From Methanolacinia petrolearia DSM 11571 (GTDB taxonomy: Archaea > Halobacteriota > Methanomicrobia > Methanomicrobiales > Methanomicrobiaceae): DNA of 64,000 nt. The translations under genes were made by a program, and so were the position numbers. The notes under the pieces are model-generated. The model was given only the letters and a program-made list of their open reading frames with translations. It made no database searches and was not told the origin of the DNA. The stretch covers positions 2,170,001 to 2,234,000 of the forward strand of contig NC_014507.1 of the NCBI RefSeq assembly GCF_000147875.1, written 5' to 3'. Positions 16,243 to 37,873 of this stretch are shown piece after piece; the stretch's first letter is position 1; the number at the start of each line of letters is the position of its first letter.

Positions 16243-18355
16243 CACTGATCTTGAACAATTTGCAGAAATGTTTCATCAGGATATTATTGCCGGAATAAGG
16301 GATTCTGAATCAGAGTTATTTTCTGAAGAGCAGTTCACCAATCTGATGATGGAGTACCTTGCCGATGCCGGAGAGATCGATGACCATGAAATTTGTTTTC
16401 ATCAGGCAAGAGGAATAAAAGTTAATGGCTATTCTTTTTTCAATGATAACGAGGCACTGGACCTTTTTGTATCTAATTATACCGGCGATAATCCACCAGT
16501 ACGTGTAACAAAAACTGATCTCAATCTACAATTAAAACGCCTCAGAAATTTTTTTGATAAAGCAATCAAGAGGGAATATCTAAGTTTTGAAGAATCATCA
16601 CCAGCTTTTGACCTTGCTGATCGCATATACCAGCTTCGGAACAAACTAAATCTTATCCGTTTATTTGTTCTGAGCGATGGAATTGCAAATATCGAAGAAG
16701 TTCCTGATGATGTTTGCGGACCCTATCTTATTTCCAGCCATATCTGGGACATAGAAAGATTACACCGCCTTGTAAGCTCCGAACAAAAACAGGAACCTGT
16801 AGTAATCGATCTGATTAGCGAATTCAATGAACCACTTCCCTGTCTTTCTATGCCGGAAGAGAATTCAGTATACTCTACTTATCTTTCCATAATGCCCGCA
16901 AATATGCTCGCAGATCTATACGGTAAATTTGGTCCACGGCTTCTCGAAAGAAACGTTCGTGCTTATTTACAGATGAGAGGGAACGTAAACAAAGGAATTC
17001 GTGATACAATTATAAACCAGTCTCATATGTTTCTGGCATATAATAACGGGATTTCTGCAACAGCAGACGCAATTGATTTAATTGAGGGCAATAATGGAAT
17101 TCCTTGTATCAGTAAAATTCGTGATTTTCAGATAGTAAATGGAGGCCAGACCACTGCTTCAATATATCATACACGTTCCAAAGAAAAGAAAGATATATCC
17201 GGGGCTTTTATACAGGTAAAACTTACAGTTTTAAAAAACCCTGAAGACGCAGATATCATTGTTCCTAAGATATCTGAATATGCAAACAGCCAGAATAAAA
17301 TAAACGCTGCAGATTTTACATCAAATGATCCTTTCCATATCGCAATTCAGAAATTATCCCGGCAGATTTGGGCACCGGCGAAGAGAGGAAATCAGCGGGA
17401 AACTCATTGGTACTATGAACGTGCCAGAGGGCAATATCAGGATGAAAAAGCACGAAAGCTTACCCCTAAACAAAGAAGAGTATTTGGAGAACAAAATCCT
17501 ACCGGGCAGCGATTCACTAAAACAGACCTTGCCAAATTTGAACAGTCGTGGGATCAATTGCCCTATATTGTTAGTCTAGGAGCGGAGAAAAATTACAGAG
17601 ATTTCATTATAAGATATAGAGAGAACGGAGAATTCACCCCGGATGCCGGCTACTTCCACCTTTTAATCGCAAAGGCCATCCTATTCAAAAGAACAGACAA
17701 AATTGTCCTTAGCCAAAAATACGGAGGATATAAAGCTAATAATGTAACATATACAGTTGCTCTTCTCTCAAAACTTACAGAAAAACGAATTGACCTTGAG
17801 CATATTTGGAAAGAACAGAAACTTTCACAGGCTCTTGATAATGTCATTACCAAAATCTCAGGAATTGTTCAGGCGCATATTACTTCACCACCAGGAGGAA
17901 AAAACATCACTGAATGGTGTAAAAAGAAAGACTGCTGGGATTCATTATTAAAGAAGAATATTTCAATAACGGATGAACTGAAGAATGAATTAGTGGATGA
18001 TGATATTCTAAAGTCACGGGATGTAAGAGCTCGTATGGAACCTGAAAGAAATGAAGATGAAAATAATGAAAATAGTTATTCAGAGGATGGATCTGACCTC
18101 TTGGAATTAGAAAATTCAATTAATTATCAGGATCTTATAAGAAACCTCACTCCTCAAAAATGGCTGAAAATAATCAGGAAAGCAAACGACACAGGGATTT
18201 TTTCAGAGGATCAAATAGTTCTTCTCAGACGGATGCAAAAGATGGCAGGGAGAAGAATTAAGCCAAAAGATGATCAGGTTCAGCAAACTGGAAAAATATT
18301 GCAGAGTCTTATAGACAAAATTCAGGAGGAAGATCCTGAATATCATTTCACTTAA
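16235..18355 (+). CDS. AIPR family protein (abortive infection phage resistance)
   Basis: Member of the AIPR family (PF10592 type), 706 residues from the ATG at 16235. That start is preferred over the upstream in-frame ATG at 16196 because GAGGTG lies 6 nt before it and it overlaps the previous stop by only 8 nt. Family hallmarks: NVRAYLQMRGNVNKGI, FLAYNNGIS, IVNGGQTTASI and ISEYANSQNKINAADF in the middle third. The molecular activity of the family is not settled; it is found in phage-resistance loci and is the probable effector or sensor. Its stop codon lies inside a TTAA that also supplies the stop of the convergent vsr gene. Confidence 0.87.
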   Translation: MTDTDLEQFAEMFHQDIIAGIRDSESELFSEEQFTNLMMEYLADAGEIDDHEICFHQARGIKVNGYSFFNDNEALDLFVSNYTGDNPPVRVTKTDLNLQLKRLRNFFDKAIKREYLSFEESSPAFDLADRIYQLRNKLNLIRLFVLSDGIANIEEVPDDVCGPYLISSHIWDIERLHRLVSSEQKQEPVVIDLISEFNEPLPCLSMPEENSVYSTYLSIMPANMLADLYGKFGPRLLERNVRAYLQMRGNVNKGIRDTIINQSHMFLAYNNGISATADAIDLIEGNNGIPCISKIRDFQIVNGGQTTASIYHTRSKEKKDISGAFIQVKLTVLKNPEDADIIVPKISEYANSQNKINAADFTSNDPFHIAIQKLSRQIWAPAKRGNQRETHWYYERARGQYQDEKARKLTPKQRRVFGEQNPTGQRFTKTDLAKFEQSWDQLPYIVSLGAEKNYRDFIIRYRENGEFTPDAGYFHLLIAKAILFKRTDKIVLSQKYGGYKANNVTYTVALLSKLTEKRIDLEHIWKEQKLSQALDNVITKISGIVQAHITSPPGGKNITEWCKKKDCWDSLLKKNISITDELKNELVDDDILKSRDVRARMEPERNEDENNENSYSEDGSDLLELENSINYQDLIRNLTPQKWLKIIRKANDTGIFSEDQIVLLRRMQKMAGRRIKPKDDQVQQTGKILQSLIDKIQEEDPEYHFT

Positions 18356-35781: not shown

Positions 35782-35842
35782 CAGAAATATGCGATCGGTT
35801 AACGAAAAGTGTTTAAATTAATCAAAACATATAACCATAGTG

Positions 35843-36247
35843 ATGAAAGACACTCTACTGACTGACAGGCAAAAAGAAGTGTTGAGGTACAGGAAGCAGG
35901 GCCTGACGCAGCAGCAGATAGCTGATATCATACACACGTCCAAGGCAAATATCTGCACCATTGAAAAGGCTGCGATGGAGAATATTAAAAAAGCCCGCGA
36001 AACTCTCGATTTTCTCTACACGCTCGATACTACCCATCTCTGTACAATAGAGAAGGGGATGGATTCGCTCGATGCCGTAAAAAAGATATTTGCGGAAGCC
36101 GAAAAGCCCGGCATCAAGATCCAGTACGATACGATTTCACTGATAAACAAGATGCGCGAATCGAATCCTGAAAAATTCAGGGGAAGATACATAAAAGAGG
36201 ACCTGGAGATCTATATCAACGAAGACGGGGACATCTTCATCAGTTAA
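35843..36247 (+). CDS. Tfx family DNA-binding protein
   Basis: Transcription regulator of the Tfx family, about 134 residues; the founding member binds the fmdE promoter region in Methanothermobacter. The N-terminal helix-turn-helix (LTDRQKEVLRYRKQGLTQ, then IADIIHTSKANICTIEK) is followed by the conserved C-terminal Tfx domain. ATG 35843 follows GTG 35840; either may be used. GTTTAAATTAA ending at 35820 is a TATA box about 25 bp upstream, so the mRNA is probably leaderless. Its divergence from mtd suggests, without proving, that it controls mtd. Confidence 0.85.
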   Translation: MKDTLLTDRQKEVLRYRKQGLTQQQIADIIHTSKANICTIEKAAMENIKKARETLDFLYTLDTTHLCTIEKGMDSLDAVKKIFAEAEKPGIKIQYDTISLINKMRESNPEKFRGRYIKEDLEIYINEDGDIFIS

Positions 36248-36362: not shown

Positions 36363-36372
36363 GATTTATATT
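36363..36372 (+). promoter_or_regulatory. TATA box upstream of the structured RNA region
   Basis: TTTATATTAT preceded by GTTTTAAATAG; predicted start of transcription near 36395, 40 nt before the closing helix of the candidate RNA and 465 nt before uL3. Confidence 0.4.
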
Positions 36373-36433
36373 ATCTCAGAAAAAATATTTAGGAACCCAT
36401 TATGGGATTATATGGATCGCATGAAGAACGAGA

Positions 36434-36796
36434 GCCGGACCGGCCCTCAAAACAGCGAAACCTAAATCCCGGTGGTTGCCCGGACAACGTAATCGCTGTC
36501 CGGAGATTGCCGAGAAAGGACAAAAAGCCTATGAAGGCTTTCTGTTCGGCTGACAAAGTAGGATCTGATAAATGCGCCTCAAGGGTGGACGAAATTTTCG
36601 GCCCTTTATCCGACGGGATAGCGCACAAATAGGTCAGAATCTTTAGAGAGAGATTTCCGATAACAGGAAAGACAAGGCAGAGGAAAAACGTCCTGTATAA
36701 CAGGCAGGTTCCCGGCCGAATGCAGACAGCATTACAGTCTGCCGCAGTTATGGTTATTCTCAGATTCAGCAGACCGAAAATCCTTTTTGGTCCGGC
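36434..36796 (+). ncRNA. Candidate structured RNA (about 363 nt)
   Basis: I find no convincing protein gene between the Tfx gene and uL3 (36248-36859), but many nested inverted repeats that form one consistent fold. Closing helix GCCGGACC/GGTCCGGC (36434-36441 with 36789-36796). Hairpin 36480-36486/36497-36503 (CCGGACA/TGTCCGG). A two-part stem 36509-36513/36546-36550 with inner 36524-36529/36536-36541. A core helix 36561-36568/36760-36767 encloses stems at 36573-36577/36617-36621, 36654-36658/36666-36670, 36692-36696/36700-36704 and 36722-36727/36737-36742. A final hairpin, 36798-36805/36812-36819, lies just after. It lacks the conserved boxes of RNase P RNA and the SRP helix-8 motif. It may be a separate RNA or the leader of the ribosomal protein operon. 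Confidence 0.5.
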
Positions 36797-36859
36797 CGAA
36801 ATCCGTAAACCCGGATTTCTCGGAAAAAAGTTCAAAGAATAAACAGGACTGATTGATAA

Positions 36860-37873
36860 ATGCCTGGAACAACCAGACCACGCAGAGGATCACTTGCATA
36901 CAGCCCGCGCAAAAGGGCGAAGAGTCAGGTACCGAAGTACCACTCATGGCCTTCGTACAACGGAGAGCCAGCCTTTCAGGGTTATGCAGGTTATAAAGTG
37001 GGTATGACTCATGTCATTATGATCGATGACCACAAGAACAGTCCATCGGAAGGAAAAGAGATCTCAGTACCGGTTACGGTAATCGAGATTCCGCCGATGA
37101 AAGTCATCGCGATTCGTGCCTATACAAACGACACATACGGCAGGAAAGCATTCGCCGAAGTTTGGTCAGAAAACATCGACGAGAGCATCTCACGTGCTAC
37201 ACAGATCCCAAAGAAGCACAATGCCGAAGAACAGAAAGAGAAAATTCTTAAAGGCATCGAAGACGGCTTTGTAACCGACATTTTTGCAATAATGTACACG
37301 CAGCCCGAACAGCTCACAGGTGTCCCGAAGAAAGTTCCGGAACTGATGGAGATCCGCATCGCAGGCGGAGACCTCAGCACACGCCTCGACTTCGGAATCT
37401 CCAAGCTGGGAGAGGAAGTCGAGATCGAGAATGTAGCAAACGCCGGACAGTACATCGATGTAACTGCCGTTACAACCGGAAAGGGAACCCAGGGTGCAGT
37501 AAAACGCTGGGGCATTCAGGTAAGAAAGCGCAAGCACTCACGCGGAAAGAAGAAGCGCCATATCGGAAACCTCGGACCGTGGACACCTCACCACGTAAGG
37601 TGGCAGGTACCGCAGATGGGTCAGATGGGATACCAGCAGAGGACCGAATTCAACAAGCGCATCCTCAGGATCGGCAATAACCCCGAAGAGATCAACCCGG
37701 ATGGAGGATTCCTCCACTACGGACTTGTCAGGGGAAAATACGTTCTGATCAAAGGCTCGATCCCCGGACCTACAAAGCGTCTCATAAGGATTCGCCCGGC
37801 AATACGCCAGGGAGAGCATGTCTTCCGCGAACCGTCGATTAACTTCGTCAGCACAATGAGTAAGCAGGGGTGA
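36860..37873 (+). CDS. rpl3: Ribosomal protein uL3
   Basis: Large-subunit protein next to the peptidyl-transferase centre and first gene of the operon. 337 residues, archaeal/eukaryotic-length L3 ([19 protein letters not shown] start; [19 protein letters not shown]). No strong ribosome-binding site is visible (GATTGATAA). 8 nt separate it from uL4. Confidence 0.96.

Follow-up and report, generated by a model that had tools for sequence, protein, structure and literature searches.

A conserved RNA ahead of the uL3-uL4 ribosomal protein operon of Methanolacinia petrolearia and its homology to a SPOUT methyltransferase gene

Positions 36390-36859 of the window (the whole stretch of DNA analysed, 64,000 nucleotides of contig NC_014507.1 of Methanolacinia petrolearia DSM 11571) appear to form the 5' leader of the mRNA from the uL3-uL4-uL23-uL2... 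operon, a cis-acting ribosomal protein leader of the RF03135 type, with uL4 as the most likely ligand, which was first embedded in a gene and was kept after the gene had decayed; a probability of about 0.78 is assigned to this reading. The leader DNA is homologous to the PF02598 gene, which encodes a SPOUT methyltransferase, as is evident from shared nucleotide landmarks and from its position before uL3. For much of the phylum it is probable that a regulatory RNA of the largest r-protein operon is written inside an rRNA-methyltransferase-like gene, and that it has repeatedly been freed as a leader on loss of this gene.

The leader unit begins at about 36390, close to the promoter; the portion conserved in it extends from about 36468 to 36670. 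The conserved structured part consists of the hairpins H1 and H2 and a core with the helices P1-P4. The following features were recognized:

36363-36370, plus strand: TATA-like box TTTATATT, presumably belonging to the promoter of the operon, from the sequence; AT-rich TATA-like stretches lie ahead of the 5' element in relatives.
36387-36405, plus strand: 5' element ATTTAGGAACCCATTATGG of 19 nt, strongly conserved, with a single occurrence in the window.
36470-36512, plus strand: H1, a hairpin (36480-36486 with 36498-36504) and an outer G-U-rich stem (GGTGGTTG..GATTGCC), from folding and comparison with relatives.
36518-36547, plus strand: H2, a hairpin with inner stem 36524-36529/36536-36541 and outer stem GGACA/TGTTC; the sequence is variable, the hairpin conserved.
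36565-36569 with 36633-36637 (3' strand GTCAG), plus strand: P1, closing helix of the core, from the RF03135 alignment and with 96.9% of cells paired in alignment A2 (see below).
36573-36577 (TGCGC) with 36621-36625 (GCGCA), plus strand: P2, with compensatory changes; partner swap 13.24 versus 10.19 ± 0.27.
36583-36604, plus strand: P3/P3b, GGGU-GGA-CGAAA...UUUCG-GCCC, a conserved internal loop and hairpin; P3 is 100% paired in 71 distinct sequences.
36607-36620, plus strand: P4, hairpin TATCC/GGATA, with compensatory changes at 7 of 7 model pairs; partner swap 16.43 versus 10.99 ± 0.39.
36654-36670, plus strand: P6-like hairpin TTTCC/GGAAA, from sequence comparison, with a weak fold signal.
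36817-36824, plus strand: conserved TTTCTCGG, found in many leaders, the TCTCGG of which is homologous to the SEF codons of the gene.
36860-37873, plus strand: uL3 gene, the first gene of the operon (Pfam PF00297).
From 37882, after uL3: uL4 gene (Pfam PF00573).

From the gene order read at the locus, uL23 and uL2 lie downstream of uL4. The 5' element was kept in gene-bearing and gene-less relatives, and in G018 it is situated just ahead of the methyltransferase start; transcription presumably starts at about this element, judging from the spacing to the TATA-like box. The stretch 36414-36860 folded with -147.4 kcal/mol, compared to -119.6 ± 6.2 kcal/mol for dinucleotide shuffles (z -4.5), and 0 of 100 shuffles were as good. 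The initial annotation had described a nested-hairpin RNA of about 360 nt before the r-protein operon. A structured leader with a conserved core is indeed present there, but the fold as drawn was not borne out, its long-range helices not being conserved. The proposed inner helix (36561-36568 with 36760-36767) takes up the 5' strand of P1. Its downstream complement occurs at chance level: in 59 gene-less leaders the best downstream complement to this strand did not surpass that in shuffles (mean z 0.04), and the exact complement TCAGATTC was found only in the three genomes of the organism's own genus. For the 8-bp closing helix (about 36434-36441 with 36788-36795), the 5' partner is missing already in the same-genus genome G002. 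Other parts of that description agree with the present results, namely the TATA box in front, the start of the operon 63 nt past the claimed end and the lack of a sound protein gene, since neither long open reading frame across the leader (36402-36629, plus strand; 36392-36835, minus strand) matched a protein family. The RNA is also not RNase P RNA, in line with the lack of its motifs noted in that description; RF00373 was unmatched in the window, and the archaeal RNase P RNA of the genome is located elsewhere (G000:C1:2096998-2097307).

A permissive Rfam search, as the initial annotation had suggested, yielded one meaningful match, to RF03135 (L4-Archaeoglobi r-leader) at 36565-36637, with 31.0 bits and E 4.8e-4 in 621 bases. 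This score is under the curated gathering cut-off of 34.5 bits, whereas the same-genus genome G002 scored above it (41.3 bits), as did 102 of 199 Methanomicrobiales genomes. The core 36565-36637 is a diverged member of RF03135: the architecture of the family (P1, P2, P3 with hairpin, P4) is present, and the core lies upstream of the rplC-rplD-rplW-rplB operon. Neither this match nor the homology to the methyltransferase gene was part of the initial annotation. The family, recorded in Rfam (PMC7779021), was introduced by Eckert and Weinberg (2020; PMC7247131) from Archaeoglobi only, as a borderline 5'-UTR candidate; coding sequence is not mentioned in the main text of the paper. The window leader shares with it the P1-P4 architecture, the operon rplC/rplD/rplW/rplB and overlapping matches in gene-bearing and gene-less genomes, and differs by its score under the cut-off, the extra hairpins H1 and H2, and its free-standing state after gene loss. 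A match to mir-205 at 36773-36841 was far under the cut-off of that family and was rejected.

Alignment A1 comprised 46 leaders of the order without a neighbouring methyltransferase gene. The P1-P4 structure, which was written from these sequences, agrees with that of RF03135 published from Archaeoglobi. In a plain MAFFT alignment covariation amounted to 0.211, compared to 0.142 ± 0.008 in shuffles, and was above every shuffle; RNAalifold recovered P3 alone from the plain alignment. A covariance model (R1) was built solely from the 46 gene-less Methanomicrobiales leaders, with no gene-bearing sequence. It scored 46.7 bits in the window and matched 72 of 72 gene-less leaders, including those of family f3, which RF03135 had missed. 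In the model-fitted alignment (A2) 326 compensatory (two-sided) cells were found, versus 120 ± 9 in shuffles. Since A2 is fitted to the structure, an alignment-free partner-swap test was also carried out: the strands of P2, P3b (10.85 versus 7.83 ± 0.27) and P4 paired better with their own partners than with those of other genomes, beyond 500 of 500 permutations. The first pair of P1, otherwise a near-invariant C-G, becomes G-C in the divergent leaders L142 and L151 (genera g35 and g36). Compensatory changes, which the initial annotation had named as a check, were seen in P1, P2 and P4. Its alternative, a leader that regulates the large operon, is supported by the covarying RNA core which the gene-less leaders examined have ahead of uL3. 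False matches of R1 of up to 31 bits were seen within unrelated genes; therefore, the weakest matches (24-33 bits, mostly from family f9) depend on position. Two matches inside coding regions were judged to be due to chance, one at 18084-18149 of the window (20.5 bits), the other in G032 (L257), within a gene for an ATPase.

The 100 nt upstream of the core, which contain H1 and H2, had a mean fold z of -2.30 in 55 gene-less leaders. Downstream, the P6-like hairpin occupies the place of the FWCTPE-coding segment in gene-bearing relatives. Tentatively, and judging from complementarity, TTTCTCGG could pair with CCGAGAAA (36510-36517); no covariation was detected for this CCGAGA/TCTCGG helix, both strands of which are often present, with some genera having only one.

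What we infer for r-protein binding, the ligand, and the direction and mode of control is the following. Whenever one of the r-proteins encoded in the operon, most likely uL4, is in excess over free 23S rRNA, it would bind to the core of the nascent mRNA and thereby lower expression of the operon. The reading as an r-protein leader is based on the cis position before the uL3/uL4 operon, on survival of the RNA without the protein and on the published reading of RF03135. In the window 222 nt separate the end of the core from the uL3 start, and in gene-bearing relatives several hundred nt; at such a distance the uL3 start is unlikely to be masked directly, and the RNA would more likely act on transcription elongation, mRNA decay or coupled translation. 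The bacterial L4 leader of the S10 operon is comparable with respect to the idea of autogenous control, the operon and the proposed ligand. To our knowledge, its sequence and structure are unrelated to those of the window leader. By this analogy uL4 is probably the ligand, as a best guess. A different ligand (uL3, uL2, uL23, L7Ae or a non-ribosomal factor), or a role of the RNA in the processivity of transcription of the long operon, is a real possibility, somewhat short of even odds; uL3 is the first gene, and the R1 model search found no resemblance of the core to 23S rRNA. On the other hand, uL4 is the ligand of the established bacterial leader of the same operon according to PMC7247131, in which the uL4 argument serves as a "prior" for the leader candidate rated borderline, and the loop GGGU-GGA..A-GCCC loosely resembles, by eye only, GGGUGACAGUCCC in domain I of the organism's own 23S rRNA.

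The strong fold would suit a stable non-coding RNA of its own, about 360 nt long and active in trans (a separate RNA was one of the two options in the initial annotation). Such an RNA is very unlikely, because the element is found invariably directly ahead of uL3 and neither its ends, including a 3' boundary, nor its closing helix are conserved.

The gene homologous to the leader is intact in some relatives. The conserved stretch lies within an intact PF02598 SPOUT methyltransferase gene in two genomes of the same family (G008 and G018) and in two of a different family (G033 and G073). The landmarks common to leader and gene are the 5' element ahead of the start codon, TACCGAGAAGG (YREG), GTAGGATCTGA (VGSD), GGTCAGGATCT (VRIY) and TCTCGGAAT (SEF). 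R1, although built without such sequences, matched 38 of 38 gene-bearing genomes, always within PF02598/COG2106 coding sequence directly ahead of uL3. In a phylum sample of 247 genomes PF02598 was present in 125 and RF03135 in 141, with the RNA located within the gene in the copies that were inspected; the genome of Haloferax volcanii matched both. The length of the element modulo 3 falls into a single class in 38 of 38 gene-bearing genomes, compared to 25, 25 and 22 in the three classes of gene-less leaders.

It could be argued that RF03135 is conserved PF02598 coding sequence which merely resembles an RNA family, since for the majority of the genomes in the phylum sample its matches fall within the PF02598 gene, and the conserved motifs coincide with conserved residues. 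This notion is hardly credible, considering that gene-less genomes share the structure and that coding copies responded to synonymous-codon shuffling. With protein and codon use held, 840 consensus pairs were counted in the native sequences versus 649 ± 10 after shuffling, with the same direction in 36 of 36 sequences. As gap placement might favour the native sequence, the test was repeated on ungapped helices (476 native versus 388 ± 6); the best P4 hairpin at any place had 8.75 bp in native and 6.04 bp in shuffled sequences. The plain folding energy of coding copies was not special when compared to other windows of the same gene; since that test was unspecific, pair-based tests were used instead. 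Among 57 PF02598 loci checked, uL3 followed 4-159 nt downstream in 52, and the RNA was present (weakly in one); the other five were not followed by uL3 and contained no RNA, a contrast which is suggestive, as these five genes are from other, more distant families.

In the window itself no open reading frame matched the PF02598 profile, the frames being broken. PF02598 was absent genome-wide from 57 of 60 genomes searched, including that of M. petrolearia, and was present only in G008, G018 and G033; a methyltransferase profile of our own construction found no gene at 61 of 65 uL3 loci from Methanomicrobiales. In a tree from uL3 and uL4, the lineages with the gene branch from among those without it, which corresponds to 8 losses without regain, or 4-6 when weak nodes are collapsed; alternatively, there may have been fewer losses, followed by regain through transfer. 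G206, a genome from outside the order, has kept the RNA before uL3 but not the gene, whereas its congener G233 has both gene and RNA; G206 thus represents a further independent loss with retention. The RNA thus survives at its old place after gene loss, here and in most close relatives, which suggests control of r-protein production. According to the proposed history, the ancestral RNA would have been a portion of the SPOUT methyltransferase coding sequence just ahead of uL3, as it is now in haloarchaea and others; the gene would have decayed in the lineage of M. petrolearia and the RNA would have been kept by selection.

Clear homology to the gene and broken frames would also be expected of a decaying pseudogene, i.e., of functionless leftover sequence; this is extremely improbable, since the element was kept in six families with compensatory changes, after several losses, and helix-forming positions were retained while the surrounding sequence was replaced. 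That the methyltransferase binds or modifies its own mRNA is scarcely likely either, although the RNA lies in the gene of the enzyme, apparently over the part that encodes its inserted OB-fold domain (as read from the description of that domain in PMC1829167), because the RNA persists in genomes wholly without PF02598.

COG2106 genes have been noted in archaeal ribosomal operons, and MT1 is a candidate m3U 23S enzyme (PMC2584109). The gene is the nucleotide-level homologue of the leader core and is likewise situated before uL3; the window copy differs in consisting of broken non-coding remnants. Mammalian lncRNAs which are fossils of coding genes (PMC5577775) are similar in that a protein gene turned into a non-coding RNA locus; in contrast, the archaeal RNA pre-existed in the coding sequence, is a cis leader and was retained after several losses. 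A literature search that took in the main text of PMC7247131 found no paper tying the leader to the methyltransferase gene.

With these data RF03135 changes from a borderline Rfam family to a well-supported, phylum-wide element, and its overlap with a protein gene is explained. The repeated cases of a protein lost and its RNA retained amount to natural experiments, which should make selection at the RNA level and at the protein level separable on one sequence. Autoregulation of archaeal r-proteins becomes directly testable, including in the genetic model Haloferax volcanii. If the proposal is true, living archaea would show, several times over, a route by which coding sequence turns into cis-regulatory RNA. 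Annotation may mislabel such leaders as pseudogenes or intergenic DNA.

G066 (family f5, genus g23) was the single sampled Methanomicrobiales genome with uL3 in which no RNA core was detected. P4 carries very long insertions in L053, L054 and L055, which come from certain Methanomicrobiaceae, and P3b is long in L233 (G206); therefore, the hairpins tolerate expansion. The upstream neighbour of the leader (35840-36247) encodes a Tfx-type DNA-binding protein (PF14601), and mtd (PF01993) is located farther upstream on the opposite strand. By eye, the Tfx-like gene is also found ahead of the leader in several relatives.
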